NCBI RefSeq assembly: GCF_011044495.1
Contig: NZ_CP049143.1
Span: forward strand, 6,200,001-6,264,000
Direction of reading: 5' to 3'
Length of the DNA stretch: 64,000 nt
From: Roseimicrobium sp. ORNL1
GTDB lineage: Bacteria; Verrucomicrobiota; Verrucomicrobiia; Verrucomicrobiales; Verrucomicrobiaceae
This document shows positions 30,351-45,120 of this stretch, in pieces. A program made the translations under genes and the position numbers. The notes under the pieces were generated by a model. That model searched no databases and was not told where the DNA came from. It saw only the letters and a program-made list of their open reading frames with translations. Numbering within the stretch: position 1 is the first letter of the stretch; every line of letters begins with the position of its first letter.

Positions 30351-30370
30351 TCCTCCACTTTTGTGGAGGA
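30351..30370. terminator. Hairpin beside attL
   Basis: TCCTCCAC (30351-30358) pairs with GTGGAGGA (30363-30370) around TTTT. It lies just outside the attL core, downstream of the displaced tRNA 3' half on the minus strand and downstream of the GNAT-like gene on the plus strand. It may have been the original tRNA-Tyr transcript end. Confidence 0.45.
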
Positions 30371-30427
30371 TGGTGGGCAGGGGTGGGTTCGAACCACCGT
30401 AGGCGTAAGCCAGTGGATTTACAGTCC
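30370..30427. repeat. attL (displaced 3' half of tRNA-Tyr)
   Basis: All 58 bases are identical to 44970-45027. The sequence runs from the tRNA CCA end (minus strand) through the T-arm and variable arm to the anticodon stem. The bases beyond 30427 diverge from the tRNA, so this copy is not a functional tRNA. Confidence 0.93.
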
Positions 30428-30463
30428 CGCGCCTTTCATTGTGGCACTAGGGAAAGATTGACT

Positions 30464-30482
30464 GACTGCCAAAATACTGCCA
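30464..30482 (+). promoter_or_regulatory. Integrase arm-type site, left
   Basis: GACTGCCAAAATACTGCCA occurs here and again at 44843-44861, inside the opposite end of the element. It holds two ACTGCCA units 11 bases apart. Its position 36 bases inside the att core and upstream of the integrase gene is typical of recombinase arm sites. Confidence 0.7.
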
Positions 30483-30494
30483 ATATGTGCAAGT

Positions 30495-31739: not shown

Positions 31740-32178
31740 GCAACGCTATGTGCTCTCTGTCGTTGCTGTTCAAGATGTGTTTCGTTAAATCATTGTAGAC
31801 GGCCACAAGATCTACCATTCGCACGTGTACCCAGTACAACTCCTCAATGGATCGAGGCCCTCTTTTTATCCGCGAGATGATTTTGGACATCGCGCGTGTT
31901 GCGTAGACCACATCGCTCCAATCCATCACCTCTTCGCGACGTTTCGCCCGTCGTCGAATCTTCCGCTTCCGGCTAACGACATCCTTCTGGTCACAGGCCC
32001 AAATTAGCATTTCGTCGCTTAGAACGGCTGGAAAGTAGCGCTCCAAGCTACCTTTCCGCACTGGCTCAAGTCCAGAGATCTTCCCCTCACGCGCCAAAGC
32101 GGAGATTCGGCGGGGATGAAGACCAGCCAACTTGGCGAATTCCTCCCTGGAAACGAGGCGCTTAGGTGTCTCTTCCAT
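31630..32178 (-). CDS. Putative DNA-binding protein with N-terminal winged-helix motif
   Basis: The start is placed at the ATG at 32178 (182 residues). The N-terminus (RLVSREEFAKLAGLHPRRISALAREGKI) resembles MerR/excisionase-type winged-helix proteins. A basic cluster follows (RKRKIRRRAKRREEV), then a helical region (YWVHVRMVDLVAVYNDLTKHIL). It is divergent from the next small regulator and overlaps the 3' end of the integrase gene in the opposite orientation. It could be an integrase regulator, a repressor or a small terminase-like protein; the exact role is not known. Confidence 0.6.
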   Translation of the reverse strand: MEETPKRLVSREEFAKLAGLHPRRISALAREGKISGLEPVRKGSLERYFPAVLSDEMLIWACDQKDVVSRKRKIRRRAKRREEVMDWSDVVYATRAMSKIISRIKRGPRSIEELYWVHVRMVDLVAVYNDLTKHILNSNDREHIALLKSDWSRKLKSVPWRASPPNTSPPPQASRFAGSAQK

Positions 32179-32223
32179 ATGTGCTAAGTGCTGGTCCGTG
32201 TTGACAAGGAAAGCACGTGTATC

Positions 32224-32475
32224 ATGCATACACAAGCACCAACTAACAAAAGCCCTCTCGGGCAGCTCTTGAAGATACATGAACTGGCACCTCTTTTAGG
32301 TTTGACGGTTCGCGGAGTTCAAAGTCTCACGCGTCGCCGCGTGATTCCCGTCGTCAGGTTGTCAGAACGAGCAGTGCGATACAATCCAACCGCAGTTCAG
32401 TCTGCGCTTGAGGCGCTCACGGTGGAAGCCGTCAGCACGACCGCAAAGCGGAAGGCGGGCCGCGTGTCGGCATAA
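32224..32475 (+). CDS. Small excisionase-like HTH protein
   Basis: The 83-residue product from the ATG at 32224 has LLKIHELAPLLGLTVRGVQS followed by LTRRRVIPVVRLSERAVRYN. This is the typical pattern of MerR-like/AlpA excisionase helix-turn-helix proteins, in which an N-terminal helix pair is followed by a wing ending in RYNP. The C-terminus is basic. It is divergent from the minus-strand DNA-binding gene, with only 45 bases between their starts, so shared operators are likely. A role in excision or early regulation is inferred from size and position. Confidence 0.65.
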   Translation: MHTQAPTNKSPLGQLLKIHELAPLLGLTVRGVQSLTRRRVIPVVRLSERAVRYNPTAVQSALEALTVEAVSTTAKRKAGRVSA

Positions 32476-32506
32476 AGAAGGGCGGTGGACTCTCGCCCGA
32501 CCGCCC
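32475..32506 (+). promoter_or_regulatory. AAGAAGG-hairpin leader element, copy 1
   Basis: AAGAA is followed by GGGCGGT (32480-32486), which pairs with ACCGCCC (32500-32506). A similar AAAGAAGG-plus-hairpin lies at 41647-41685 before the XRE gene. The hairpin sits directly upstream of the replication initiator gene and has no T-run. Confidence 0.35.
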
Positions 32507-32543
32507 CGCACTTAGAAGGTGATGGAGGAGTTTAGGCGATGGC

Positions 32544-33512
32544 ATGCCACGGCGCAACGGGAATATCACACCCTATTGCCATCGATACATGGGATTCAAG
32601 CACATAGAAGCTGGCCTCTTTGCGCCAGTCACGCCAACGGAGAAGCTGGTACTTCTCGTGTTGGCGTACCACTGCAACGACAAGGACCTGAGGTGCCACC
32701 CGGGATTCGGTCGCATTTCCCGTGCATCAGGTCTCAGCACCAGGGCAGTATCGAAGGCGATCAAGGCCTTGGAGATGCAAGGGATCATTGCAGTCACCCG
32801 AGGGACCGGTACCACTCCCTCAGTCTATCGCCTTCCATTCCTGAATCGACCGTTTCCCGACACTGATACGGGGGATGAACGTGGTTCACCCCTGAACGTG
32901 GTTCATCCCTCCCATGAACCTAATTCACCCCCGGGGGTGAACGTCGTGCAGGAGGGGGATGAACGTGGTTCACCCAAACAGGAAGTTAACAGGAATATTG
33001 AAAAGGAAGAGAACATGAATCTTTTTCCCGCGCCGCTTTCAGCGGACGACGGGGGCGACCATGGATCATCTCAGTCTAAACCTTCAAAACCAAAGAAGGG
33101 GAAAAAGGAAACACATGCAGATCCTCGTCATCATGCAATCACCTCTTCATGGGGAAGTCAGTTCCAGACCTTCCACTCTCAGGGGTATGTCTTCAATGGC
33201 CGTGATGCGTCAGCGTTGAAACGCTTCCTCACCTCAGCCCGTGACGTCACTGCGGAGAAGTTCATGGAGAGAGCAGGGAAAGCATGGGCACATGCGAAAG
33301 CAGACAGGTTCGCACGTCACTGCGCCAGAGCCGCCACCATCGCGGGGCTCTGCGATGCCTGGAACGACATCGCCACGGAGATGCAGCGCCCACCTCCCAC
33401 CGCCGGCGGAGCATACAGCATGCGTCCCAACAATCGCCGCGATGAACGCGGACAGCTTCCCGGAGAAATCCCCACCGACGTCACCGCAGCCAAAATTCCA
33501 AGAATCGGATAG
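32544..33512 (+). CDS. Phage-type replication initiator (lambda O-like organisation)
   Basis: The 322-residue product has an N-terminal winged-helix domain (residues about 18-100; FAPVTPTEKLVLLVLAYHCN, HPGFGRISRASGLSTRAVSK, VYRLPF). A low-complexity middle (residues about 108-145) is encoded by an iteron array, and the C-terminus is basic and Pro-rich. The helix-turn-helix plus the next gene's DnaC-like ATPase matches the O/P logic of lambdoid phages: this protein would bind the iterons in its own gene and recruit the loader and DnaB. It is followed after 2 bases by the loader gene. The family match is by organisation and wHTH pattern. Confidence 0.75.
   Translation: MPRRNGNITPYCHRYMGFKHIEAGLFAPVTPTEKLVLLVLAYHCNDKDLRCHPGFGRISRASGLSTRAVSKAIKALEMQGIIAVTRGTGTTPSVYRLPFLNRPFPDTDTGDERGSPLNVVHPSHEPNSPPGVNVVQEGDERGSPKQEVNRNIEKEENMNLFPAPLSADDGGDHGSSQSKPSKPKKGKKETHADPRHHAITSSWGSQFQTFHSQGYVFNGRDASALKRFLTSARDVTAEKFMERAGKAWAHAKADRFARHCARAATIAGLCDAWNDIATEMQRPPPTAGGAYSMRPNNRRDERGQLPGEIPTDVTAAKIPRIG
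32876..32972. other. Probable replication origin: intragenic iterons
   Basis: Five TGAAC-N3-RTTCA dyads lie at 32876-32888, 32893-32905, 32915-32927, 32938-32950 (degenerate right half) and 32960-32972. The last four are spaced 22-23 bases apart, two helical turns. They are inside the initiator gene and are followed by an AT-richer stretch (about 32980-33025) that could be the unwinding region. Confidence 0.75.
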
Positions 33513-33514
33513 CC

Positions 33515-34465
33515 ATGAAAATCCCGACACCCCAACAGCAGAAGGAGGCTCAAGCAAACGCCCATCGCTTCCCGTCTCACTACACGTACATGAAGATCGC
33601 TGAGTGCTTGGAGGCTGAGCGCAACGGACCTTCCGAAGCCGTTGAGCAGCCCAAGCCCCCGCCCATCCAATGCCGTGAGTGTGGTACGGAGATGGATGAG
33701 CCGGACGAAGTCTTGCGCGCGCTGTGCTCCAATCATGGATTCGTCTGCGAAGCATGCGAGAAGAAGGCGGAAGAGGCGAGACGGCTTGCATGGGAGCGTA
33801 GACCGCTGGCTCCATGGCCGAGCCTTTGGCCAGAGCGGGCCATCTTGGACCAAGAGAATTGCAGCGGGGAACCGTTGCGCCTTGCCAAGGTAATCGAGGG
33901 GCTGCTGGCAGACGGCGCCATGGTAGGGCTGATAGGCGACCGTGGCAGGGGCAAGACCGTCATGGCGGCATGGATTGCGCAGAAGCGACGGGAGCGCCGT
34001 GAGGAGCCGGGCATCTATCTCCGTGCTGCGGATATGTTCGCGATGCTGCGGGGCACCTGGGACAAGGACAGGGATCGCGGACGACACAGCGAAACAGAAC
34101 AAGGACTGATGAGCCGGTTCAGGGAATGCGAGTTCCTCGTCATCGATGAAATTCAGGAGCGCGGCCTGTCAGAGTGGGAGAACAAGATCTTGGTCAACAT
34201 CCTCGACCATCGATATGCCAGCCTGTTGCCCACCCTCATCATGGGCAACCTGAGCGCTGAAGACCTCGCGGCGAACCTTGGGCCGTCAATCTCCGACCGC
34301 ATGGCACAGACGGGTGGAGTAGTCGAATGCAATTGGCCGAGTCTCAGGCAGCCGGGCACGAAGCCGTACACCAAGGAGCAGCGGGAGAGCATACAGTGGA
34401 GTCATTGCCCTTTCACTTCAAATGGAGGGCTTGGATTCCGTGGGAGGGAGATGCAGCTCCACTAA
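33515..34465 (+). CDS. DnaC/IstB-like helicase-loader ATPase
   Basis: The 316-residue product has a four-Cys zinc-binding cluster near residues 53-83 (CRECG, then CSNHGFVCEAC). An AAA+ ATPase domain follows with Walker A GDRGRGKT, Walker B FLVIDEI and a sensor-like region LPTLIMGNLSAEDL. The domain order (zinc cluster before the ATPase) resembles DnaC-like loaders found in phages and plasmids. It lies 2 bases after the initiator stop, so the two are co-translated. It should deliver the replicative helicase to the origin. Confidence 0.85.
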   Translation: MKIPTPQQQKEAQANAHRFPSHYTYMKIAECLEAERNGPSEAVEQPKPPPIQCRECGTEMDEPDEVLRALCSNHGFVCEACEKKAEEARRLAWERRPLAPWPSLWPERAILDQENCSGEPLRLAKVIEGLLADGAMVGLIGDRGRGKTVMAAWIAQKRRERREEPGIYLRAADMFAMLRGTWDKDRDRGRHSETEQGLMSRFRECEFLVIDEIQERGLSEWENKILVNILDHRYASLLPTLIMGNLSAEDLAANLGPSISDRMAQTGGVVECNWPSLRQPGTKPYTKEQRESIQWSHCPFTSNGGLGFRGREMQLH

Positions 34466-34515
34466 GCCTATGGGCGGGCAGGGCACCCCCCGGGGGGGGT
34501 AGGAAGTCTACTGTT

Positions 34516-34641
34516 TAGACACCTACAGCGCGGTTCCCAAAGCTGGCGTCGTGTTTGAACGGGACACTTTTTTTCCAACTTCCCATGACTAGACACCCCG
34601 CCCCTCATCAAAACTGGCTGACGGTAAACTGACTAGACACC
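34516..34641 (+). repeat. Three TAGACACC direct repeats
   Basis: TAGACACC occurs at 34516-34523, 34590-34597 and 34634-34641 (the last two as GACTAGACACC). They lie in the 220-base gap after the helicase loader gene, which also holds GC-rich and T-rich tracts. They could be regulator or single-strand origin sites; the function is unknown. Confidence 0.45.
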
Positions 34642-34685
34642 AAAAACGGCCAGAAAAATACCAAGAATTTTTTCACTCACTTCCC

Positions 34686-34880
34686 ATGAACGCCAGCGCT
34701 CATATCCCCAGGATGAAGCCTGAGACGAAAGGCTCAATCCTCCATCTCCTCCACGAGGGAGCTGAGGGCGCCCGCTGCCCCTACAACGTCGTGGAGTGCG
34801 CCCGCATGCTCCGGGAGGCACGGACCTGGAACGATGAGCAATGGCTCACCGTGGCGCGGAAACTTCGAATCAAGCACTAG
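34686..34880 (+). CDS. Small hypothetical protein
   Basis: The 64-residue product is mostly helical and charged (MKPETKGSILHLLHEGAEGA, VVECARMLREARTWNDEQWL, TVARKLRIKH). No family recognised. It is followed after 4 bases by the next gene and therefore likely co-transcribed. A TTCCC lies just upstream but no strong ribosome binding site is visible. Confidence 0.5.
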   Translation: MNASAHIPRMKPETKGSILHLLHEGAEGARCPYNVVECARMLREARTWNDEQWLTVARKLRIKH

Positions 34881-34884
34881 ACCT

Positions 34885-35376
34885 ATGGACGAAGAAACAA
34901 TCAATCCCTACGGCTCCTGCACGCTGATATGGCTGGAGAAAAAGGACTTCTGCCCCATGGCACAGATCCCTCCGCGCACCGCTGCACGCATGGCAAAGGA
35001 CGGGCGAATTCCCGGCACTGAGGGCAGAGCACCCGGCCGGCACGATGATCCATGGCCGATCTTGCTGATCGACAAGCTTGAGAAATGGATCCAGGATCAT
35101 CTCGATTGGAAGCGGCGGCTTGCGGTTGAGCAGGAGCGGAAGGCCACAGGAGCGAAACTGACTCGCCTCCCCGCCATTACTCAAGCCGTGGATACCATCG
35201 AGGTTGAACTGGGAAGAATGGCCGAACGCAAAGTGCATAAACGCCTGTCAGGACAGGACATCATGATCCTTGAGAAGGAACTGCGCCGTGGTCGCGCCAA
35301 GCTGGCGGCCTATCACAACGTCGTACTTAAGCTGATGGAAGGCGATGAGATCCCGACCATCCCCGATGCGGCTTGA
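34885..35376 (+). CDS. Hypothetical protein, early element gene
   Basis: The ATG at 34885 gives 163 residues. The N-terminal half has an HTH-like PPRTAARMAKDGRIPGTEGR stretch. The C-terminal half is helical with basic residues (ERKVHKRLSGQDIMILEKEL, RRGRAKLAAYHNVVLKLMEG). A DNA-binding or small-terminase-like role is possible, as such proteins precede structural modules, but nothing is diagnostic. It is followed by a 71-base gap and the tail-type module. Confidence 0.5.
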   Translation: MDEETINPYGSCTLIWLEKKDFCPMAQIPPRTAARMAKDGRIPGTEGRAPGRHDDPWPILLIDKLEKWIQDHLDWKRRLAVEQERKATGAKLTRLPAITQAVDTIEVELGRMAERKVHKRLSGQDIMILEKELRRGRAKLAAYHNVVLKLMEGDEIPTIPDAA

Positions 35377-35447
35377 ATGTGCCATGTGCCACTTTTTTGG
35401 AGGGCTGCGCATAGGGTAAGAGATCAAATAATTCACCCTCACACGCC

Positions 35448-36440
35448 ATGCTATTCAGCAAACTCATTCCAGAACTCAAGGCCCAGATCCAGCGTTTGAA
35501 GGATGCAAACTTCAAGCTCCGAGGCGGCAAGCCATCCGCCAGAGTTAGCAAGCCAGAGCCGGAACTGCAACATAAGAAGATGGACTGGCTCAATGATGAG
35601 TACAAAGCCGAGGCCGAGGAGAACGACTCGCTGTGCTCTCAGGCATCAACACCGCCGATCGTGTCCGCATCCGCTTCCACGCCTCCGCTCCCTTCACCAG
35701 CGCCAGCACCTCCCGTGCCCACTGCGAAACCTGCACCCGCGCCCATGACTACCGCGCTCCCCTCCGCCCTCAAGCCTGCCGCTGCTATTGCAGCAAAGGC
35801 CCCGTTCACAGACTCCAAGTTCATGTACCGCGGGGTCTATGATGCCATGGGCCCGAAAGAGAAGAACGACTTCATCCGAAATGGCGGTCACCTCCTGGAG
35901 ATGAAGGAGGGGGACGTTTCGAAGCATGCTGTTGAAGCCGCTACCGCGCACGTCAATGACACTCCCGAAGTCATCGCGGAAGCCCTTGTCCAGGGGTTTG
36001 GTCTGAGCAGCGCTGATGCCGCAGAGTTGCTGCTGGCCCGCTTCAATGGAAAATACAATGCCGCTACGTTCTCGCTTCACACCGAAGCCAGCATCAAAGC
36101 TGCGCTTGCCACGGCGTCGAAATCCACAAAGCCCAAGGGCTACCTGCTCCCTGGTGCTCAGCCCGTGGACAAGTCGCGGCACGACCGATCCCGGAAAAAC
36201 TTCGCGGTCTTCAAGAAGCCCGGCGAAGTGAGCGAGCCTGACCGCCTCAAAGCTGAGGATGCGCTCATGGTGCTTTGGGCTGAATTCGACAAAATCTCAG
36301 ATGTCATGGTTAGGGCGGTTTGGTGGGAGAAGCACCGTGACGAAGTGTTCGCCCATGCCGTGAACGAGACGAGGCGCGGACCTCGATGGCTGGGGACGTT
36401 CATCGCCAAAATCCCCCACGAGAACCTTTACATTTCCTAA
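35448..36440 (+). CDS. Hypothetical element protein with coiled N-terminus and Pro/Ala linker
   Basis: The 330-residue product has an N-terminal coiled segment (LFSKLIPELKAQIQRLKDAN), a Pro/Ala-rich linker around residues 65-115, and a C-terminal globular part (YRGVYDAMGPKEKNDFIRNG, ALVQGFGLSSADAAELLLAR). It precedes four genes that resemble a tail module. I do not recognise the family; a structural or scaffold role is conceivable. Pro-rich linkers joined to a globular head occur in phage structural proteins, but that alone is weak evidence. Confidence 0.55.
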   Translation: MLFSKLIPELKAQIQRLKDANFKLRGGKPSARVSKPEPELQHKKMDWLNDEYKAEAEENDSLCSQASTPPIVSASASTPPLPSPAPAPPVPTAKPAPAPMTTALPSALKPAAAIAAKAPFTDSKFMYRGVYDAMGPKEKNDFIRNGGHLLEMKEGDVSKHAVEAATAHVNDTPEVIAEALVQGFGLSSADAAELLLARFNGKYNAATFSLHTEASIKAALATASKSTKPKGYLLPGAQPVDKSRHDRSRKNFAVFKKPGEVSEPDRLKAEDALMVLWAEFDKISDVMVRAVWWEKHRDEVFAHAVNETRRGPRWLGTFIAKIPHENLYIS

Positions 36441-36457
36441 GCCCATCATCTCACACC

Positions 36458-36856
36458 ATGAAATACACTCGCGAATTTCCCACCCTCTCCACTTCACAGG
36501 TAAACAGCATCTCCGCTTTTGAACTTCTCACGCTGACCACCTTCAGTTGTTTCGTCACTGGCGATCCTGCGGGAACGGAACCAGTGGAACCCGTCCGCTT
36601 GGAGCACGAAGCACTGATGACCTACGAGAACGCATCGGGCGCGCTTACCATCGATACAGAGCGAGAGCTTGCAGTTCTCAAGGCCAAGTTTGAAGGCTTC
36701 CATGCAGCACGCACTCTGCCGCAGGGTGTCGTGAAGGTGAAGCTGCTGAGCCTGGAGACTGGCATCGTATATGCCGCTCATGCCTTCCTGGAGGACAGTC
36801 CGGTCGAATTCTTCAATCGCCTTGGCGATGGCCAGTACAGGCGCATGCCCATCTAA
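36458..36856 (+). CDS. Hypothetical protein, candidate tail-tube-region gene
   Basis: The ATG at 36458 gives 132 residues. The N-terminus is Ser/Thr-rich and beta-like (FPTLSTSQVNSISAFELLTL) and the C-terminus has GVVKVKLLSLETGIVYAAHA. No family was recognised. Its position, two genes before small overlapping ORFs and a tape-measure gene, is where tail-tube or tail-terminator genes lie in siphophages, but the sequence does not prove this. A 9-bp hairpin follows its stop. Confidence 0.5.
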   Translation: MKYTREFPTLSTSQVNSISAFELLTLTTFSCFVTGDPAGTEPVEPVRLEHEALMTYENASGALTIDTERELAVLKAKFEGFHAARTLPQGVVKVKLLSLETGIVYAAHAFLEDSPVEFFNRLGDGQYRRMPI

Positions 36857-36863
36857 CCCATTT

Positions 36864-36887
36864 GCCCTGCACCCGTTTGTGCAGGGC
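36864..36887 (+). terminator. Hairpin without U-tract
   Basis: GCCCTGCAC (36864-36872) pairs with GTGCAGGGC (36879-36887). No T-run follows, so it may be a partial terminator or processing site between the two small tail-region genes. Confidence 0.5.
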
Positions 36888-36966
36888 ATCGAGCGTCCCG
36901 CCCACTTTGAACATGAGAAGTGCCAGGGCGGGGCGCTCACCCATTCCTGATACACCCCATACCGCC

Positions 36967-37200
36967 ATGACTCTCTATCTTGAACCTTCCACGGACGAAC
37001 GCGCCACCGAAGCCGAGCTTGCCGAAATCCGCCGGCAGGAGGCAGAGGAGCGCCTTTCCGAACTGCTCGCCATGTACGACGCGCTCCTGAGCCGTGGAGC
37101 AAAGAAGGAATTCTTCGCGAGCTATGGCGAAGAGGTCGCCACGCTGTCGGCACAAGAAACACACCTCGGAGTGAAATGGATCGCAAAATTCCTGCCATGA
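36967..37200 (+). CDS. Small helical protein, tail-chaperone-like position
   Basis: The 77-residue product is acidic and helical (PSTDERATEAELAEIRRQEA, EERLSELLAMYDALLSRGAK). Its stop overlaps the next start by 4 bases (37197-37200). Two small, overlapping ORFs directly before a tape-measure gene are the usual place for tail-assembly chaperones, often with a programmed frameshift; no slippery site was verified. The product is not recognised by sequence. Confidence 0.55.
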   Translation: MTLYLEPSTDERATEAELAEIRRQEAEERLSELLAMYDALLSRGAKKEFFASYGEEVATLSAQETHLGVKWIAKFLP

Positions 37201-37538
37201 GCCCCAAAACACCCAAGCCCACCTATCTCAACAGTCATCCCCGCACGCCGAAGGTGCTGGGATATCAATTCACGGCGCTCAGGTCCGAGCATATGGACGC
37301 GTTGGAGGCTGCGAAGTCACCCTTCCTCAATCGTTTCTCTCCCATAGTCCAGTGGGGAGACGTGTTGCTTGCTTCGAAGGTACTGTCCTGCAACGGCACG
37401 ATCTCGGACATGGCCGCAACGCTGAAATGGACGTGGCGCGATCGCTGGCTTGTGCTGCGCAATCTGTGGAGCCAACGCGCATTCCTGGACTCCTGCGCAT
37501 CCATCTTTCGGCATCTTGAAGGTCGTGAAATGAAATAG
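37197..37538 (+). CDS. Small protein overlapping upstream gene, tail-chaperone-like position
   Basis: The ATG at 37197 gives 113 residues, sharing ATGA with the upstream stop. It has a basic N-terminus (KTPKPTYLNSHPRTPKVLGY) and a helical, Trp-rich part (AATLKWTWRDRWLVLRNLWS). It is 9 bases before the tape-measure gene. Position suggests a tail-assembly role, but the family is not recognised. Confidence 0.55.
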   Translation: MSPKTPKPTYLNSHPRTPKVLGYQFTALRSEHMDALEAAKSPFLNRFSPIVQWGDVLLASKVLSCNGTISDMAATLKWTWRDRWLVLRNLWSQRAFLDSCASIFRHLEGREMK

Positions 37539-37547
37539 GAAAGCGCT

Positions 37548-39245
37548 ATGGCTAAACTCGAAGTCAGTGTAGGGATCAACAACGCCGGCTTCAAAGCGGG
37601 CCTCGATGAGATGCGCGCAGGCGTGGCGAGGTTCAAAGGCTCGCTCGCAAGCATGTCTGGCAGCGCGCTAGGTAGCATTTTTGCTGTGGGCTCGATAGTG
37701 GCGTTCACCCGTGGCGTGCTTCAGGCTGCTGGCGCCATTGATGATCTTGCGAGCAGACACGGCGTATCTCGACAGGCTCTCCAGCAGTGGAAGGATGCCG
37801 TTGAACAGAACGGCTCAAGCCTCGAAACCCTCAGCAGCTCCCTCAACAAATTGGAGTTGGCACAAACCAAAGCGCTGAAGGGCGACGAAGGTCTAACCAA
37901 ATCATTCGCAGAGCTTGGCATTACCATTGACGATCTGCTCAGCAAATCCCCCGATCAATTGCTCATGAAGATCGGGAAGGGATCCATGGAGGCAGACGCC
38001 ATGGTGAAGGTGCTTGGCAAGAGCGCGCTGGAGCTTCGCGATGCTTTACAGGATGCTGCTGAGAATGGCTTGGGTGATGTGGTCACCATGTCGGATAGGA
38101 CGGTGAAGGTATTCGCCTCCCTGGACGATGGGCTCTCCCGTCTTGGCGCCACGGCGAAGAACTTTATTGCCAATGGTCTGGCAGATTTTTTCATTCATCT
38201 GCAAAAGGAGGGCGCTGGACTTCTGGCGCTCTTCGATCAAGTCGCCAACGGTGCCAGCGGAGCCGTTGAAATCGTCGGAAAGCTCATGAGCGGGGACAAG
38301 ATGGGTGCCGCCACCGCATTCCAGAAAATGAAGGAGAACGCCAAGGAGATCCACGAGCAGTTGAAACAGGACAAGGCGGATATCGGCGCGAAGTACAGCG
38401 GCAAGGATGAGGGAAGCGGAAAAGAAACAGGCACCAACGAAGCCAAAGAAGAAGCAGCAGAAGCTCAGAAACGCGAAGACCGCCTCCAGAAAATCCGAGA
38501 GGCCGAGGCCGATGCCGCACGCGAAGCCCTCGAAGGCCAGCAGAAAATCAATGCCCTGCTGGAGGAGCGAAACCGCTTGCTGGAAATCTATAAGTCCTCC
38601 GAGGATGGAGACAAGGGTTTGGATGCACTGGAGAAGGCCCAGCGTGTGCAGCGCCAGCTTGAGCAGGAGCAGAAGCGACAGGACGGCGACAAGAAGAAGC
38701 GCGCTGAGGACATTGCGAAGCAAAAGGAAGACGATGCCAAAGAAGAGTCCCAACGCCAAGAGCGCATCGCCTCAGCTCGAAAGGATGAAGCGCAGGCGCG
38801 TGAAGACGACGAGATTTCCACGTTAGGCGGTGAGGACAAACTCAAAGCCTTGTGGGCCAAAAAGGACCGCATGGACAAGGAGGCGAAGGATCTGGAGGAA
38901 TCAGACCCTGAAGCCGCAGCTCGAAAGCGCACTGAAATTATCGGTGTGAACGCTGAGATTCGCAATGAGCGCAAATCTCAGAAGGAAAAGGAATCGCAGG
39001 CTATCGAGGACCAAGCCGACAAGGTGAAGAAGGCCAAGGAGGGCATTGGTGACGCTAAGCGCGCCGCCGCCAGCGTGCCTGCTGACTCACTCGGCGCAGT
39101 GGGCGGCGGTCGAGGAAACATCAATGGAGGCGATGCGCAAGTGAGGGCCGCTGAGAAGGCGGTGAACATCCAGCAGCAGATCCTCAATCACCTCCAGAAT
39201 GGCGCAGCAAAATCAGGGAGGAAGGAGGCCACGGTATGGCAGTGA
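37548..39245 (+). CDS. Phage tail tape-measure-like protein
   Basis: The 565-residue product begins KLEVSVGINNAGFKAGLDEM followed by RAGVARFKGSL, a signature opening of tape-measure proteins. It has a hydrophobic stretch (SALGSIFAVGSIVAFTRGVL) and then a long Ala/Lys/Glu/Gln-rich helical region (residues about 290-490) predicted to form extended coiled coils. Tape-measure proteins set tail length in siphophages and myophages; at 565 residues it would correspond to a short tail. The last 10 bases overlap the following gene. It is the clearest structural gene of the element. Confidence 0.8.
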   Translation: MAKLEVSVGINNAGFKAGLDEMRAGVARFKGSLASMSGSALGSIFAVGSIVAFTRGVLQAAGAIDDLASRHGVSRQALQQWKDAVEQNGSSLETLSSSLNKLELAQTKALKGDEGLTKSFAELGITIDDLLSKSPDQLLMKIGKGSMEADAMVKVLGKSALELRDALQDAAENGLGDVVTMSDRTVKVFASLDDGLSRLGATAKNFIANGLADFFIHLQKEGAGLLALFDQVANGASGAVEIVGKLMSGDKMGAATAFQKMKENAKEIHEQLKQDKADIGAKYSGKDEGSGKETGTNEAKEEAAEAQKREDRLQKIREAEADAAREALEGQQKINALLEERNRLLEIYKSSEDGDKGLDALEKAQRVQRQLEQEQKRQDGDKKKRAEDIAKQKEDDAKEESQRQERIASARKDEAQAREDDEISTLGGEDKLKALWAKKDRMDKEAKDLEESDPEAAARKRTEIIGVNAEIRNERKSQKEKESQAIEDQADKVKKAKEGIGDAKRAAASVPADSLGAVGGGRGNINGGDAQVRAAEKAVNIQQQILNHLQNGAAKSGRKEATVWQ

Positions 39246-40189
39246 AGACCATGGCAGACTTCCACCCGGCATTTGAAGTGCCGCCGGGGAACGCCCAGTG
39301 CTGCCACTGCCTCGGGCTTCCAGCAAACACCTGCCCTGACTTCGCGTTTCAAGGCAAGCAGTGCATCGGCACGCCGAACGGGGTAATGCCTTGCGGCTTC
39401 TTCAATCCTGAAGACGGGAAGTTTTACCTCGAAAAGACCGTGACCAATTCGCGGGAGGTCCGCACCGTTTCACCCGCTCCCCATGTGTGGGAGTGTGAGA
39501 CTAGCGGAGGATCCAGGCGCGTGACTGTTGGAACTGTCGATGTAGAAATTCCCTATGATTCACGGGCGAATCAAACTTGCGCGATTAACGTTGCCACGCT
39601 GGCCTGCGAGTGCTCCCCGGACGTCACGGAGTCGTCATACACGCTCACCCGTCAAGTGGTCCGGCTCTATGATGTCAGCGATACTGATTGCAACGGGGAT
39701 TTCTTGGAGGTGCCAGGCGCGTTCATCACGGAGTTGGATGTGGAGAACAGCATCTTTGATGAGACTGAGTACAACAGCGAATGGACCCAGCCTGGTCACA
39801 GTGAAATTCAAGGGAGCGCAGTGACAAATTCTGCCGCGAACTGCTCCGAGGAGTTTGGTGACACTCCAATCGGGCTAAGTTATTTCCTCGTAAATGAGGA
39901 AACCTCCGAGGTCCTCGACTGCCTTTACACCTCATGCGAAACCCGCATTGTGATCACGGGAGGGAACTCGGGGTACATCCGAATCGTCTACGGTGTGATG
40001 GATGAGAACAGTGAGATTATCGAGAACTATGAGATAGAGCACGAATGGGATCCCACACTTGGCGGGGCTGACGCTGAATACGGCGGTCCTACGCTTACCG
40101 CGGCTTGGCCCACAGGCGAAGGCAGCGACACGCTCTATTCCCGAGAGTTGGTTCTAATCGAGTACTCCTGCGTACGTGAGGAAGAATGA
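39236..40189 (+). CDS. Cys-rich hypothetical protein downstream of tape measure
   Basis: The 317-residue product has a Cys-rich N-terminus (AQCCHCLGLPANTCPDF and later single Cys up to CEC and CSEEF), a middle with many Ser/Thr/Asp and predicted strands (SYTLTRQVVRLYDVSDTDCN), and an acidic C-terminus. No family was recognised. Its place after the tape measure suggests a tail-tip or receptor-related role. It overlaps the tape-measure stop by 10 bases, and its many Cys residues are unusual for a cytoplasmic tail protein. Confidence 0.6.
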   Translation: MAVKTMADFHPAFEVPPGNAQCCHCLGLPANTCPDFAFQGKQCIGTPNGVMPCGFFNPEDGKFYLEKTVTNSREVRTVSPAPHVWECETSGGSRRVTVGTVDVEIPYDSRANQTCAINVATLACECSPDVTESSYTLTRQVVRLYDVSDTDCNGDFLEVPGAFITELDVENSIFDETEYNSEWTQPGHSEIQGSAVTNSAANCSEEFGDTPIGLSYFLVNEETSEVLDCLYTSCETRIVITGGNSGYIRIVYGVMDENSEIIENYEIEHEWDPTLGGADAEYGGPTLTAAWPTGEGSDTLYSRELVLIEYSCVREEE

Positions 40190-40256
40190 TGGAGTCTGAG
40201 CAGGTCGCATCGCCGCCAACGCCAACAAGGGACCGTGAATCATCCAATCTACAAAA

Positions 40257-40883
40257 ATGAGTAGCGCACAGGGTGCCCAGCACTTCGGTACGAAGAAGCG
40301 TCAAGGGGAGGAAGGTCGTTTCCGTCAGGAGACAGCCGCTCAAACCCCCTTGCCGACTCGTGGGCGCATGTTCACCAAGCCGTTCCCGGGAGGTCGAGGA
40401 CTTGAGTTGAAGAAGCAGCGCGGGGCTGCATCTTCGCTACCTCATCACCCCTTCGAGCTTTACCGAACGAGGGTGGATGACGTAACTGGCTGGGCAGTCT
40501 ATCCAGCTTCGGTAAACGGAATCATCGAGCCGGAGATCGACGGCATATCAATCTTCTCAATCCCCGCGCCGTTCCTTACGGTTGAGGAAAATTTCACTGC
40601 CTATCTCAACTTCAACTTGGACGGAACCAAGAGGCTGGGGAACGACGGCAAATGGTACCTCGTTCCTGGGAAACAACAGCTCAGCAATGTTGTGATATCG
40701 CTCTTGCCGGGCGAGGAGGTGGGGGTTGCTGTGGACCCTGACTCAGGGATCTTGACCCAAGGTCACTATGTCTATCCGATTGGCGAAGTAGCTGCTGGAG
40801 AAGTGGTAGAGCAGACCAGGCGCTTCAGCGTTTACTTCACGGTGTGCAATTCAGGTCAATTGGTTATGGCCGAGTACGGTTAG
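40257..40883 (+). CDS. Hypothetical protein, last gene of tail-type module
   Basis: The 208-residue product has a basic, disordered N-terminus (residues 1-70) and a beta-rich C-terminus (PFELYRTRVDDVTGWAVYPA, FSIPAPFLTVEENFTAYLNF, RRFSVYFTVCNSGQLVMAEY). No family recognised. It could be a tail fibre or tip protein by position. Its 3' end overlaps the convergent minus-strand gene by 20 bases. Confidence 0.55.
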   Translation: MSSAQGAQHFGTKKRQGEEGRFRQETAAQTPLPTRGRMFTKPFPGGRGLELKKQRGAASSLPHHPFELYRTRVDDVTGWAVYPASVNGIIEPEIDGISIFSIPAPFLTVEENFTAYLNFNLDGTKRLGNDGKWYLVPGKQQLSNVVISLLPGEEVGVAVDPDSGILTQGHYVYPIGEVAAGEVVEQTRRFSVYFTVCNSGQLVMAEYG

Positions 40884-41271
40884 CCGCGTGGCGAGCCGCC
40901 TTTCTACGTGCAGCTGCTCTGATTTCCTTTTGTCGCTTTGCTTCATCGCGTTCGCGACGCAGGATATCCTCATAGAAAAAAAGGCCTCGCGCAGGCACAC
41001 CTTCTTTTCGCTGCACGATCTTCTTGCGTCCCTGTTTCAGCAGCTCCCATTCTGTTTCAATCGTCAACCGAATTGCGCACTTCGGCAGTTTCCACTTTCC
41101 GGTAAGATACCTCCGAGCGTCTGAGGCTGCTTGCCTTTCCCATTCTCTTTCTTTCGCTCGTTGCTTTACCTTCTCTTCATGGTCTATCCTGAGATTTCGA
41201 ATTAGAACCCACTCACGAATGGTGAGCTCCACTGAAATGAGTTTTGGTGCGCTGGACCTCTTAGTCGCCAC
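40864..41271 (-). CDS. Small basic hypothetical protein
   Basis: The 135-residue product is highly basic and helical (DHEEKVKQRAKEREWERQAA; RRERDEAKRQKEIRAAARRK). No family recognised. It is the downstream partner of a short minus-strand gene (41274-41507) with a 2-base gap. The opposite strand also has an open frame, but its low complexity and coding context favour the minus strand. A role cannot be assigned. Confidence 0.5.
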   Translation of the reverse strand: MATKRSSAPKLISVELTIREWVLIRNLRIDHEEKVKQRAKEREWERQAASDARRYLTGKWKLPKCAIRLTIETEWELLKQGRKKIVQRKEGVPARGLFFYEDILRRERDEAKRQKEIRAAARRKAARHAANRTRP

Positions 41272-41273
41272 GG

Positions 41274-41507
41274 CTACAACGTCGGATCTCTCGGTTCCAA
41301 TTGCTCACCCGTTTGCATCACGCGCATCATGCGCAGATGGTCCTCACACAGGCGCATCATCTTGCGCATGGCATAGGCTCGATCCTCGATAGCCTTGAGT
41401 CGCGCATCCATCTGCCAGACAACCAAGGGCATCAGTAGCCCAGCAATGGCAATTAGGGTGCCGACCACGACGAGGACGAAGCCAAAGAGACCAGTGAAGA
41501 TTTCCAT
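41274..41507 (-). CDS. Small single-pass membrane protein
   Basis: The ATG at 41507 gives 77 residues. One N-terminal membrane segment (TGLFGFVLVVVGTLIAIAGL) is followed by a basic helix (DARLKAIEDRAYAMRKMMRL). The size and topology would suit a holin-like or small phage membrane protein, but no family is recognised. It is 2 bases upstream of the basic hypothetical gene, and the perfect dyad at 41593-41611 lies about 90 bases upstream. Confidence 0.5.
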   Translation of the reverse strand: MEIFTGLFGFVLVVVGTLIAIAGLLMPLVVWQMDARLKAIEDRAYAMRKMMRLCEDHLRMMRVMQTGEQLEPRDPTL

Positions 41508-41592
41508 GGTTGGATCGAATAGCAAGGATTCGCACTTTCGTCCATAAGGATTCTCCTCATGTGGAAAAAATATGCATTCTCCTCTTGCCGGA

Positions 41593-41611
41593 ACTTGTAC
41601 AGTGTACAAGT
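41593..41611. promoter_or_regulatory. Perfect 19-bp dyad, probable regulator operator
   Basis: ACTTGTACA-G-TGTACAAGT is fully symmetric. It lies between the minus-strand small gene (start 41507) and the XRE gene (start 41742), where a Cro/CI-type protein would bind. Confidence 0.65.
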
Positions 41612-41646
41612 ATAGGGGTGTGAAATCCGCAAATAGCGGATGGAAC

Positions 41647-41685
41647 AAAGAAGGCCCGGTCAGTGGTGGAACACCGACCGAGCCC
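41647..41685 (+). promoter_or_regulatory. AAAGAAGG-hairpin leader element, copy 2
   Basis: AAAGAAGG precedes a compound hairpin: CGGTC (41657-41661) with GACCG (41676-41680) and GTG with CAC inside it. A second copy of the same layout is at 32475-32506. No T-run follows. Confidence 0.35.
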
Positions 41686-41741
41686 ACATGCAGACAATCC
41701 TACAAGCTACTAAACCGAAGGATCACCTACAATGAGAACCT

Positions 41742-41936
41742 ATGTCAGAAGAAATCGCCCGCAAGCTCAAAGCAGCCCGCGCAAAGACGGACGAAACACA
41801 AGGGGCGTTCGCAAAGAGGCTCGGCGTGTCAACGGATGCGGTGATAAGCTGGGAGAACGACCGCCGCACCCCTCGCGGCCTCGCCCTGGAAGCGCTCAAC
41901 GCAAAGCTGGACGCCATCCTAAAGGGAAAGAAGTAA
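41742..41936 (+). CDS. Cro/CI-type HTH regulator (XRE family)
   Basis: The 64-residue product is almost entirely an XRE helix-turn-helix: RKLKAARAKTDETQGAFAKR, LGVSTDAVISWENDRRTPRG, LALEALNAKLDAILKG. It has the Gln-Ala-x-x-Ala recognition-helix layout and the WENDRRTPR motif typical of the family. The small size resembles Cro or plasmid control proteins. A perfect dyad lies about 130 bases upstream. It begins a short plus-strand operon of four genes. Confidence 0.85.
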   Translation: MSEEIARKLKAARAKTDETQGAFAKRLGVSTDAVISWENDRRTPRGLALEALNAKLDAILKGKK

Positions 41937-42007
41937 TCCTGCCACGCATACCTGTCTCACACCGTCCTACACCCAGCGATCATGGCAACTGGCTGCACTA
42001 CAGAGTT

Positions 42008-42214
42008 GTGCCAGGAATGCGTCGGCTTCAGTACGTTGAAAGCCGCAGTGGAAAGAATGCGTGCATCTTCGTGTCCCAAGCACAGGACCGCCGGATGCGG
42101 AAGATGGCAAAGCAGGAGGGGCACGAGAACCCCGTCACGATGATGGTGGCGAAGTTGGCTAGATTGCTTCTGGCATCCGGTGCCCTGCGCAAGGAAGGGA
42201 GGGCCGCAGCATGA
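42008..42214 (+). CDS. Small hypothetical protein of XRE operon
   Basis: The start is uncertain: GTG at 42008 (68 residues) or ATG at 42017. The product is basic with RLQYVESRSGKNACIFVSQA and a helix QDRRMRKMAKQEGHENPVTM. Its stop overlaps the next ATG (42211), so it is translationally coupled, which supports it being real despite the weak start. No family recognised. Confidence 0.45.
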   Translation: MPGMRRLQYVESRSGKNACIFVSQAQDRRMRKMAKQEGHENPVTMMVAKLARLLLASGALRKEGRAAA

Positions 42215-42453
42215 AGAAGACACCCATGGTGCCAGCTGCAACCGTCCTCTTACCACAGGAGGGCTTTCTCCTGCGCGTGACGGAAACGGGCTGGATCAAC
42301 ATCGTCCAGGGTGACGAGGAGTCCGGCGACTTGAGCGAGGTTGCCATTGTCATCCTCAGCCCCCGTGAGGCAAAGGTGCTTCTCGACTCGCTGCCGGAGT
42401 ACATCCGTGTGGCCGGTGAACTTCATCAAGATTCGGAGGTGCCTTGCGTATGA
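42211..42453 (+). CDS. Small hypothetical protein of XRE operon
   Basis: The 80-residue product (VPAATVLLPQEGFLLRVTET; IVILSPREAKVLLDSLPEYI) is probably a small alpha/beta protein. It overlaps its neighbours on both sides by 4 bases (42211-42214 and 42450-42453). No family recognised. Confidence 0.55.
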   Translation: MKKTPMVPAATVLLPQEGFLLRVTETGWINIVQGDEESGDLSEVAIVILSPREAKVLLDSLPEYIRVAGELHQDSEVPCV

Positions 42454-42917
42454 GAAACACCTACTTCATTGGCCCATGGAAAGGCATGGGCGCGGCCATG
42501 GAGGATTGTGCAGAGGAGACCGGCCATTCCGTGGCTCACCTTCTCCGCATCGGTGCCGACCGCGTGTTGCAGGAGTACCACACCACCGGGCGCGTCTCGG
42601 CAAGCAAGACAGTTCGCGAACCCAAGGCGGGCCGTCCGACGGGGAGCAGGAATGATCGCAGGGGTAATGCCCCGCCGTCCACTCTGGACAAGCTGCACCG
42701 TGCCTCGCTGGAGGCTCGTGAGGAGGTTAACCGGCTGCGCACGACCTGGGTGCAGTTCGTCATGCAGAACGGTGAGCAGGGCAAGCTAGCGGCTTTTGCT
42801 GGCGGTCGTGGCTACGGCACATGGTTGCGGCTCAAACGTGCCATCGAGCGCGAACGCGAGGCCGTGGAGAAGCTGGCAGAGGCAAGGGTGGCCCTCACGC
42901 CATCAGGCCGGCGGTAG
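42450..42917 (+). CDS. Hypothetical protein, last gene of XRE operon
   Basis: The ATG at 42450 overlaps the upstream stop and gives 155 residues. The N-terminal part (MEDCAEETGHSVAHLLRIGA) resembles ribbon-helix-helix or small HTH helices. A basic low-complexity linker (PKAGRPTGSRNDRRGN) and a helical C-terminus (RAIEREREAVEKLAEARVAL) follow. DNA binding is possible. A good terminator-like hairpin follows the stop. Confidence 0.5.
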   Translation: MRNTYFIGPWKGMGAAMEDCAEETGHSVAHLLRIGADRVLQEYHTTGRVSASKTVREPKAGRPTGSRNDRRGNAPPSTLDKLHRASLEAREEVNRLRTTWVQFVMQNGEQGKLAAFAGGRGYGTWLRLKRAIEREREAVEKLAEARVALTPSGRR

Positions 42918-42935
42918 GCCCACTGAGCAAATGCG

Positions 42936-42971
42936 AACCCGCCAGCGCCTTCGTGGTGCTGGCGGGTTTCC
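42936..42971 (+). terminator. Terminator between XRE operon and cargo operon
   Basis: AACCCGCCAGC (42936-42946) pairs with GCTGGCGGGTT (42958-42968), followed by TTC. It separates the plus-strand operon from the convergent minus-strand cargo genes and could act in both directions. Confidence 0.7.
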
Positions 42972-43028
42972 GCTTTCCAGTTCCGCCATAATCCCGTCCC
43001 CTGACCGGAATGGAATGAGAATAGACTC

Positions 43029-43577
43029 CTAGAAGTGGGGAATATCCACCGGCAACCCCACTCGCATAAAGAACCTGGCGAACGCCTGTGAAAGATGTTC
43101 ACAGTACGGGTGGTTGAGCCTAGGTCGACTGCCAAGATTGCGAGCGAAACTTTTCACAGTCTCGATTGGCAAAGTAAACAAGTTGCTGAGATCCGCCAAG
43201 GCATAGTCCAGCTTCACATTTTCATTCTCAAATCTATTGAGAACGTGATATGCGGGCATCTGACCTTTCCTTGCTTGGTTCCAACTATCTCTTTTCGAGA
43301 ATGTGGCATCGCTCGCCAACTCATGCTTTTGCAGCAAAGGACACAGGATCACATTTTCAACGCCATAAGTGCCGTCCCTCCTAAGCGCTAGATCACATGA
43401 CTGAGTGAGTATCACTGCTGTCTGTTCGGATATTTGTAGCTCCGCTTCACCTTCGGAAGGCTCTCCTACCACTTTATAGAAGGGACACGCAAAAAGGATA
43501 TCCCCCTGCTGAAGCTCATCGCCATCCACAAGGTCATACCACGGATAGCGCTCTGCCGCTTTTGCCTCCGCGCTCAT
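43029..43577 (-). CDS. Unrecognised cargo protein C (three-gene operon, last)
   Basis: The 182-residue product has RYPWYDLVDGDELQQGDILF, AVILTQSCDLALRRDGTYG and VILCPLLQKHEL. This pattern reminds me of an unnamed family in which a 'QGD' turn and a 'VLTQSCDL' strand recur, but I cannot give a validated name. It is the third gene of an AT-richer minus-strand operon beside attR and its start overlaps the upstream stop by 4 bases. Conserved Cys and Asp in TQSCDL could be catalytic or metal-binding. No membrane or signal segment is present. Confidence 0.6.
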   Translation of the reverse strand: MSAEAKAAERYPWYDLVDGDELQQGDILFACPFYKVVGEPSEGEAELQISEQTAVILTQSCDLALRRDGTYGVENVILCPLLQKHELASDATFSKRDSWNQARKGQMPAYHVLNRFENENVKLDYALADLSNLFTLPIETVKSFARNLGSRPRLNHPYCEHLSQAFARFFMRVGLPVDIPHF

Positions 43578-44026
43578 TGAAAAGGATCAATTCGAACAAT
43601 GGGCGGGCGCGGGCCAATTTTCTTCGCGGCGAGCTTGTACGTGCGAAACTTCCTTTGCGGAATGGCGGCCCGAGCATCCCAGTCTACCGAATCATCGGCA
43701 TCGTACGCATCTTCGACGGCAACAGGCTCAGGAGTCCAGAAGGGAAGTTGAATATTCAGGCTGGTAGAGGAGGCATCAACAGAGTCCGCCCATAGAGCCT
43801 CTGCAAGTTTCGCGAAGAATGCCCTATCGTCACGCATTTCGCCTATGCTCGACAAGCTCAAACCAGAGATGGGCATGGTGGATCCTGCCTTATCTAAAGT
43901 GCCCGTCCTCTTTGTTTCTCCTCGGGTGCTAAATACGCGGTTGACGATCGCAATGGAATCTCTCGCTTCTGGCCGAGGATAGCGAGCGCGTGTTTGCGTG
44001 TCGGGTTCTGGTGCGTAACAGGACAT
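43574..44026 (-). CDS. Unrecognised cargo protein B (three-gene operon, middle)
   Basis: The start at 44026 gives 150 residues; an upstream start at 44065 overlaps the first gene by 35 bases. The N-terminus is basic (SCYAPEPDTQTRARYPRPEA), the middle has SLSSIGEMRDDRAFFAKLAE, and the C-terminus has RAAIPQRKFRTYKLAAKKIG. No family recognised. It sits between the first and third cargo genes with very tight spacing (4 bases from the first, 4-base overlap with the third), so the three products probably act together. Confidence 0.55.
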   Translation of the reverse strand: MSCYAPEPDTQTRARYPRPEARDSIAIVNRVFSTRGETKRTGTLDKAGSTMPISGLSLSSIGEMRDDRAFFAKLAEALWADSVDASSTSLNIQLPFWTPEPVAVEDAYDADDSVDWDARAAIPQRKFRTYKLAAKKIGPRPPIVRIDPFQ

Positions 44027-44030
44027 TGCT

Positions 44031-44672
44031 TTACGTCGCGCCAAAGGTGCTGGCCGCGATGTCATAGAAGTGTTTTACTCTATCGGGATACGTTTGCAAA
44101 GCTTCATTTGCGCCCTCATAACCTTGTTTTTTGAGGCGCATGTGATAGTTCGCCACAACTATCGTAGCCGAACGCACACCGTCAGTAAGTGGCACCTTTC
44201 CAGGTTCACAACTGACGGTCAACAACGCGCCATCTACCTTGTAGGTAAGCTTGAAGGCAGTTGCCACAAGCTCCTCATGCCTCTCGGTCCAAGGTCCCGG
44301 CTTTATGAAGCGCTCTCTGATCCAAGATGGAGGGTCATCCATGCCTATGGCGGCAGTCAAATTAATCCCCACAGCGGTATAGCGCACATGAGGCAAAACG
44401 CCGAGGTAGCTGGATGCCATGCTGGCTATGGTGGCTCTCCCTTCCTCCGAATGGGACAGCACCTGAAATTTTGTAGGCTCAGCGGTGAAGCTGGTCCCAT
44501 TGTCATAATTCACGACCGAGAAGGCAGGGGTAGTCATTAAAGGATCCACCTGCTTCCATGATTCGGGCACTATCTTGTTTGCCGTTAGAAAGGAGGGATG
44601 CAGTATGCTTGGGTTGTGCGTGTCAGCAATGATCACCACAGACGAGTCCAGCAGATTGAGCTTGAGTTCCAT
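44031..44672 (-). CDS. Unrecognised cargo protein A (three-gene operon, first)
   Basis: The 213-residue product starts KLNLLDSSVVIIADTHNPSI followed by LHPSFLTANKIVPESW, and contains SYLGVLPHVRYTAVGINLTA and WTERHEELVATAFKLTYKVD. The 'NPSIL.P.FL...IVP..W' segment looks like a conserved motif of a widespread hypothetical family, but I cannot name it. It is the first gene of the operon, about 300 bases from attR, in visibly AT-richer DNA. Location next to att is typical for defence or other cargo modules. No signal peptide is present. Confidence 0.6.
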   Translation of the reverse strand: MELKLNLLDSSVVIIADTHNPSILHPSFLTANKIVPESWKQVDPLMTTPAFSVVNYDNGTSFTAEPTKFQVLSHSEEGRATIASMASSYLGVLPHVRYTAVGINLTAAIGMDDPPSWIRERFIKPGPWTERHEELVATAFKLTYKVDGALLTVSCEPGKVPLTDGVRSATIVVANYHMRLKKQGYEGANEALQTYPDRVKHFYDIAASTFGAT

Positions 44673-44683
44673 TGGGATATTTC

Positions 44684-44707
44684 GGCCCGGCCTGCCTTAG
44701 GCGGGCC
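44684..44707 (-). promoter_or_regulatory. Hairpin in the leader of the cargo operon
   Basis: GGCCCG (44684-44689) pairs with CGGGCC (44702-44707), with three further inner pairs after a one-base bulge. It lies 11 bases before the first cargo gene on the minus strand, so it would be in the 5' leader. Function unknown. Confidence 0.4.
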
Positions 44708-44842
44708 ATTTCTAATAGCGGGTTCGACGTTCCGTCCAGAGAAACATCACATAATCCATCCTAGAAAAGAGTGCTAGGTGTCTGAACACCTTAACCCAAA
44801 AACGAATCCATGCAAGTGAAGACTTGCATGCGATGGCCGTTT

Positions 44843-44861
44843 GACTGCCAAAATACTGCCA
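44843..44861 (+). promoter_or_regulatory. Integrase arm-type site, right
   Basis: This is the same 19 bases as at 30464-30482. Downstream (44864-44900) TTTCGGTGT is repeated. It lies about 110 bases inside attR, as expected for the second arm site of a tyrosine recombinase. Confidence 0.7.
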
Positions 44862-44969
44862 GTTTTCGGTGTATTTTCGTGTGTTTCGGTGTGGCTTTGT
44901 GCGTGTCAGTGCAACGCACTAGATGAGCCATTTTCCGAACTTCATCCCTCATTTTGAGGGAGTTATGTA

Positions 44970-45027
44970 ATGGTGGGCAGGGGTGGGTTCGAACCACCGT
45001 AGGCGTAAGCCAGTGGATTTACAGTCC
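44970..45027. repeat. attR (3' part of the intact tRNA-Tyr)
   Basis: All 58 bases are identical to 30370-30427. It forms the 3' part of the tRNA-Tyr gene, including the CCA end, so integration leaves the tRNA intact. Confidence 0.93.
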
Positions 45028-45056
45028 ACCCCGTTTGACCGCTCCGGCACCTACCC
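44971..45056 (-). tRNA. tRNA-Tyr (anticodon GTA)
   Basis: Read on the minus strand, the gene is 86 bases with an encoded CCA. The acceptor GGGTAGG pairs with CCTGCCC, the anticodon stem GTGGA/TCCAC encloses CTGTAAA with anticodon GTA at 45020-45022, the variable arm is long (class II) and the T-arm has GGTTCGAACC. It is the attachment target of the element. Confidence 0.95.
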
Positions 45057-45091
45057 GAAACATTAGCCGCTCCGTTAGAAGCGGGGAGAAG

Positions 45092-45120
45092 TTGGTACCG
45101 AAGAAGCGGGGGGGATGCAA
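45092..45120 (-). promoter_or_regulatory. Possible tRNA-Tyr promoter
   Basis: On the minus strand, TTGCAT (45115-45120) and TACCAA (45092-45097) are separated by 17 bases, about 36 bases upstream of the tRNA 5' end. The -10 match is weak. Confidence 0.3.

Follow-up and report, generated by a model that had tools for sequence, protein, structure and literature searches.

The window, by which we mean the whole 64,000-nucleotide stretch of Roseimicrobium sp. ORNL1 DNA that was analysed, contains an operon of three genes on the minus strand. Gene 1 (44031–44672) heads the operon and encodes 213 residues, gene 2 (43574–44026) is the middle gene with 150 residues, and gene 3 (43029–43577) is the last, with 182 residues. 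The stop of gene 1 at 44031 and the start of gene 2 at 44026 are spaced by 4 bp, and genes 2 and 3 overlap by 4 bp (43574–43577); these ORF coordinates agree with the tightly coupled arrangement described in an earlier, sequence-only reading of the same DNA. An in-frame ATG upstream, at 44065, offers gene 2 an alternative start and a length of 163 aa. Genes 1 and 3 are not chance ORFs, because homologues exist elsewhere: the planctomycete G531 (L061/L073) has the whole three-gene operon, with identities of 38% for gene 1 (E 2e-46) and 49% for gene 3 (E 3e-63). For gene 2, the designation as a putative coding gene rests on its position and on a weak match to the middle gene of the G531 operon, which it resembles at the C-terminus only (pairwise E 0.003); a single-sequence search of plasmids with gene 2 returned no relative. 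The GC content is 0.50–0.54 across the three operon genes, compared with 0.57 in the remainder of the element that carries them and 0.60 in the flanks, in keeping with the AT-richer composition reported earlier. A promoter scan of 42900–45100 gave zero sites, where 1.6 are expected by chance. Upstream of gene 1 there is a perfect inverted repeat, CATGCAAGT-cttc-ACTTGCATG (44809–44830), possibly an operator or a part of the att region.

The operon sits at the right end of a 14.6-kb element integrated in tRNA-Tyr. The element is bounded by a perfect 58-bp repeat whose two copies are 14,600 bp apart, the attL core at 30370–30427 and the attR core at 44970–45027; the second copy belongs to the 3′ part of tRNA-Tyr (44971–45056), and gene 1 starts 297 bp from it, as expected from the earlier description of an attR adjoining the operon. 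The integrase gene of this element (30495–31739, plus strand) matches phrog_1 (E 1.3e-30), and the 10 element ORFs scanned against PHROGs also yielded an O-like replication initiator, a DnaC-like loader, and a tape-measure-like protein. Because none of these 10 ORFs matched the capsid, portal, or large terminase families (there was one weak small-terminase match), the element (30370–45027) looks like a satellite or a reduced prophage. Just inside both att sites we observed an identical 18-bp repeat, ACTGCCAAAATACTGCCA, at 30465–30482 and 44844–44861, the copies of which are predicted, and likely, to be arm-type binding sites of the integrase.

When the three operon proteins were compared with Pfam, NCBIfam, and PHROGs, the matches were weak at most and none came near a curated cut-off, and a PADLOC scan gave no match at E up to 1, with neither the PDC-M32A nor the PDC-M32B profile matched. 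The neighborhood analysis proposed in the sequence-only reading was carried out from the gene 3 side, on a set of 11 loci found via gene 3 alone (L051, L076, L077, and L080–L087). A DNA motif scan of viral contigs with the LTQSCDL core gave 9 loci, 2 of which encode real QGD...TQSCD proteins (L057, identical to L076, and L051); an earlier, differently built DNA motif scan of viral contigs had given 8 loci, with no relative among them. L077 was added to the family by a protein scan, and a gene 3 profile search of 246 genomes found 10 places in 9 genomes, 8 of which were new (L080–L087). A partner is encoded upstream in 9 of the 11 loci. In three (L051, L076, and L081) it is a gene 1 relative (hmmsearch 5e-14, 4e-12, and 3.5e-10), as judged with a gene 1 model of 17 sequences that included neither the Roseimicrobium copy nor the gene-3-linked copies, and in six it is a TIGR04255 protein in gene 1's place (4e-27 to 1e-40). 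The other two, L084 and L087, have no gene 1 or TIGR04255 partner within about 1.5 kb. Together with the whole operon in G531, these loci show that the genes travel together; neither an absence of co-occurrence nor a link to element transfer or a housekeeping role emerged for gene 3.

Several copies lie in mobile elements or near other defense genes. The operon itself lies in a mobile element; relatives neighbor an integrase in one case and annotated restriction-modification and toxin genes in another, and in a third they are carried by a phage contig, the P2-like L076, whose portal protein is 82% identical to those of Burkholderia phages. L051 adjoins a major-capsid-like protein, and in both L051 and L076 the gene 1 relative is directly upstream of the gene 3 relative on the same strand. 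In G531, a 305-aa hsdM-like ORF, which by eye reads as the start of HsdM, shares 4 bp with gene 3. In G715, a 294-aa LTQTCDL protein is encoded about 250 bp away from a gene 1 relative, with an integrase adjoining (by eye). We note that an ATPase gene comes after the gene 1 and gene 3 relatives in L076 (L076:4071-7886), with PAAR-like genes near (by eye), and because of these neighbors the site may be a defense cargo site.

The last gene of the operon is also exchanged. Six loci (L028–L032 and L034) are three-gene operons made up of gene 1, a middle gene of 177–193 aa, and a third protein of 126–137 aa; L035 has a different third gene, and L033 is cut by a contig end. In 11 gene 1 loci the third gene encodes a HEPN protein, recognized by PF05168 above the cut-off in L029, L031, L032, and L049 and by a model of those four in L028, L030, L034, L064, L065, L069, and L071 (E 1e-10 to 3e-52). 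As R-x4-6-H occurs at the usual HEPN site in just 2 of the 10 proteins checked (L034 and L065), these HEPN third proteins may not be RNases. The third gene of L047 encodes a metallo-beta-lactamase (PF00753, 25.7 bits against a cut-off of 22.7), as does that of L068 by its H-x-H-x-D-H motif, and the third protein of L050 is like PADLOC HEC-01A (2.8e-5) and PIN-like by eye. In L037 the middle gene carries a Panacea antitoxin domain (PF13274, 5.8e-19), and the third gene matches nothing named. Six further gene 1 loci (L046, L048, L060, L062, L066, and L067) either show no third gene or are cut off where the contig stops. By eye, ORFs next to gene 1 copies look like type III restriction-modification in L029 and VapC in L032.

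Both motifs attributed to gene 3 in the sequence-only reading, QGD and LTQSCDL, are present and conserved. In an alignment of 12 sequences, Q and G of QGD (residues 24–26; 43500–43508, minus strand) occur in 12/12 and D in 10/12, C and D of TQSCD (residues 58–62; 43392–43406, minus strand) occur in 12/12 and T and Q in 11/12 each, and R172 (43062–43064, minus strand) is invariant in all 12. Gene 3 was found in 1 of 387 genomes of Roseimicrobium's phylum, its own, and single-sequence searches of plasmids, phages, and viral contigs gave none. Its weak PHROGs match, phrog_4575 (0.022), was sought in 115 genomes and gave no match, the controls being silent as well. A structural model of gene 3 could be built from 3 sequences and is poor (pLDDT 59.1). 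Chains of MazF/CcdB/CptN/AbiQ type make up 47 of the 50 best structures listed for this low-confidence model, at Z of at most 3.8 and with rows that are not independent of one another; some of these chains we take to be MazF. The best Foldseek match of the same model is MazF-mt3 (5hk0_A, E 0.12). Gene 3 has in common with MazEF/PemIK, CcdAB, and ToxIN/AbiQ a GD at the predicted first strand followed by a hydrophobic strand ending in S/T. A comparison with PemK had been prompted by the motif before the outcome of the fold search. In that comparison, hhalign against a PemK/MazF profile built from 7 of 25 fetched loci gave a probability of 0.3%, at the level of unrelated controls (0.1–0.3%), and Pfam gave no match for gene 3, PF02452 included, so that membership in the MazF/PemK family is unsupported by profile. 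Most of the weak structural matches of gene 3 share the SH3-like barrel fold of these toxins, but gene 3 has 182 aa compared with about 110 in MazF-type toxins and has an invariant set of its own (QG, CD, and R). Gene 3 may be a MazF/CcdB-like barrel, an assignment to which we give slightly less than an even chance.

The NPSIL...FL...IVP..W motif described earlier is present in gene 1. An AlphaFold2 model of gene 1 from 8 sequences has a pLDDT of 87.5 and a pTM of 0.83, and its best Foldseek match is the TATA-binding protein (TBP; 1tbp_A, E 1.5e-4). VIA-align gave a Z of 8.6 against AdoMetDC, over 122 residues at 3.7 Å, and a Z of about 7 against TBP across residues 1–211, over about 150 residues at 5 Å. 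A two-repeat alpha+beta protein with a TBP-like layout is a fair description of this model, and the low Z of the matches may reflect just a common arrangement. Membership of gene 1 in the TIGR04255 family was ruled out by score, with no NCBIfam match at E up to 1 (the family cut-off is 30 bits), and by profile comparison (0.3% probability). Searches of solved-structure sequences with gene 1, gene 3, and TIGR04255 gave nothing meaningful. In a single-sequence search, gene 1 was found in 1 of 387 genomes of Roseimicrobium's phylum, again its own; profile searches found it in 2 of 213 genomes of that phylum, 3 of 77 genomes of the phylum of the L032 genome, and 12 of 246 of the phylum of the L028 genome, each count taking in a genome used for building the model. 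When genome contigs were scanned with a gene 1 alignment of two sequences, 45 pattern matches resulted, of which eight are relatives (L028–L035, the loci described above). Single-sequence searches of phages and viral contigs with gene 1 found none, and neither did scans of viral contigs with two gene 1 alignments (A2 and A3).

Judged by sequence, the closest listed type is the PADLOC phage-defense candidate PDC-M32, which is reported in Sinorhizobium prophages in an excerpt of PMC12429752. On a Picosynechococcus plasmid, a gene 1 relative precedes a middle gene that matches the C-terminal part of PDC-M32A (1e-5) and a third gene that matches PDC-M32B weakly (0.015). PDC-M32A proper differs in having a long N-terminal part, which the models used recognize neither as gene 1 nor as TIGR04255, and PDC-M32A as a fusion of TIGR04255 and a middle gene was likewise unsupported by them. 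Separately, further sets of three genes in L115, L116, L117, and L119 have a middle gene that is PDC-M32A-like ("WDSYGA...EW"), and with the model used TIGR04255-like heads precede the M32A-like middle genes in L115 and L117. The three-gene operons of TIGR04255 (sporadTIGR04255) are a further near relation, since they have the same gene 3 family and TIGR04255 as head in the 6 loci counted above, but gene 1 is unmatched by that family. A literature search found no paper naming TIGR04255. By title, no report of a three-gene HEPN/metallo-beta-lactamase/PIN or TBP-like system with this layout was found (PMC13092281 included), and fusions between TBP-like domains and RNase LS HEPN proteins are noted in an excerpt of PMC3710099.

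The genes are found together in other bacteria and also in phages, and different likely toxins occupy the last position; this suggested to us that the operon is probably a toxin-antitoxin-style defense module. The constant head, the variable effector, the short middle gene, the overlapping frames, and the mobile or restriction-linked settings together give it, by analogy, the look of toxin-antitoxin and abortive-infection modules. We give an even chance to the full form of this reading, in which the cargo carried here is a toxin-antitoxin-like module of three parts, probably anti-phage by abortive infection. In the mechanism that we propose, gene 1 would be the constant TBP-like two-repeat part, a sensor or chaperone-like partner that detects infection or binds the rest of the module, and gene 2 would be a small antitoxin or adaptor; the Panacea domain in the one related middle gene suggests that neutralization falls to gene 2. 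Gene 3 would be the effector, presumably toxic, which HEPN, metallo-beta-lactamase, or PIN-like proteins replace in related operons. Genes 1 and 2 would keep gene 3 inactive while the cell is at rest, and infection by a phage, the putative trigger, would disturb gene 1 or gene 2 and so free gene 3. The earlier proposal that this cargo is a candidate anti-phage system is partly supported. The partner linkage in 9 of 11 loci, the P2-like phage contig, and the overlap with an hsdM-like gene in G531 fit a defense-type cargo operon, but the gene 1 family is not solely a defense family, because its cyanobacterial relatives mostly precede giant secreted-type genes (10 of 17 loci, described below), nor is the general layout entirely new, because PADLOC already lists PDC-M32 as a neighboring candidate type. 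Weighing against the toxin-antitoxin-like reading, too, are the poor gene 3 model with its low Z values, the negative PemK comparison, the shortage of R-x4-6-H among the HEPN proteins, the partnerless loci L084 and L087, and the rarity of the operon in Roseimicrobium's phylum. A wider reading, possible though on the doubtful side, would make the operon one member of an unnamed class of immune modules that is widespread, occurring in bacteria, phages, and an archaeon, and that has three parts: a TBP-fold head interchangeable with TIGR04255, an adaptor-antitoxin in the middle, and an effector that can be exchanged (HEPN, PIN, metallo-beta-lactamase, or a protein of the LTQSCDL family). The Roseimicrobium effector would then be a new RNase-type toxin with a MazF/CcdB fold and a Cys-Asp center, while in cyanobacteria giant secreted toxins would be served by this head family too.

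The cyanobacterial relatives bear on a different role for gene 1. A tblastn search of plasmids with gene 1 gave 20 cyanobacterial records, from which 17 loci were fetched. In 10 of them (L002, L005, L007, L009, L013–L017, and L019) a giant same-strand gene lies downstream of the gene 1 relative, directly or after one or two short genes; these giant genes are about 10 to 35 kb long and are of polymorphic membrane protein, CARDB, Ig, peptidase S8, and colicin E3 types, one being annotated as a colicin E3/pyocin S6 cytotoxin. The gene 1 relative is downstream of polymorphic-toxin, RHS, or giant genes in 4 of the 17, with two cyanobacterial relatives coming after HINT/AHH toxin genes, and it has no clear partner in 2. 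The remaining locus, L006, is a set of three genes on a plasmid, with annotated HepT, VapC, and type I restriction-modification genes next to it. Gene 1 could accordingly be imagined as a protein-handling factor, a chaperone or export adaptor not tied to defense, that keeps a giant secreted client export-competent and does likewise for a small client in the three-gene operons, much as a SecB-type chaperone does in toxin-antitoxin-chaperone (TAC) systems, of which Mtb HigBA1-SecB and CmdTAC are examples. As excerpts of PMC5105189 describe TAC systems, a dedicated chaperone is required and toxin-antitoxin pairs are exchanged. These systems, too, have three genes and a constant nontoxin component with differing toxin-antitoxin pairs; the Panacea antitoxin domain in the L037 middle gene would also suit such a role. 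However, gene 1 is not recognizably SecB, and the gene order here is head-middle-effector. SecB is absent from the best 50 structures listed for the gene 1 model by Foldseek and by VIA-align, each, and no Pfam or NCBIfam match to the SecB family was obtained; the model resembles TBP and AdoMetDC instead. The idea of gene 1 as a SecB chaperone, which the TAC-like layout had prompted, is therefore unsupported by the structures listed, and we keep it as a rival. Client binding by gene 1 is proposed by analogy, and TIGR04255 replaces gene 1 in other gene 3 operons, though no profile similarity joins the two. Taken with the rest, we think a protein-handling role unlikely.

The toxin-antitoxin-like reading assigns the operon to defense of the host, and a second alternative is that it is a phage-carried set acting for the element itself, by superinfection exclusion, control of a helper phage, or host addiction. 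The place of the operon at the edge of an integrated element speaks for this, as do the relatives in the P2-like phage contig, beside the capsid-like protein, and beside an integrase, but other copies lie on chromosomes and plasmids with no phage genes in view, one of them overlapping the hsdM-like gene, and we consider an element-serving role improbable as well. A metabolic or regulatory operon of the ordinary sort, without a part in conflict, would be compatible with the failure of Pfam, NCBIfam, and PADLOC to name a domain in the three genes, but the sporadic distribution, the mobile-element settings, and a last gene swapped among toxin-type domains are unlike a housekeeping operon and make this very improbable.

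If the modular reading is right, several unannotated families, namely gene 1, TIGR04255, and the QGD/LTQSCDL proteins, would be joined as one kind of modular conflict system, in which the head stays constant and the effectors can be exchanged. The Roseimicrobium operon would then be a direct test bed for it, with three genes in one operon and clear residues for mutation. One would also have to ask why this head family precedes giant secreted toxins in cyanobacteria. As a separate observation among the gene 1 loci, L063 (L063:415-2136) contains a gene 1 relative, a middle gene, and a 131-aa protein that appears retropepsin-like by eye (VDSGASISVVP), with a portal-like phage gene adjoining.
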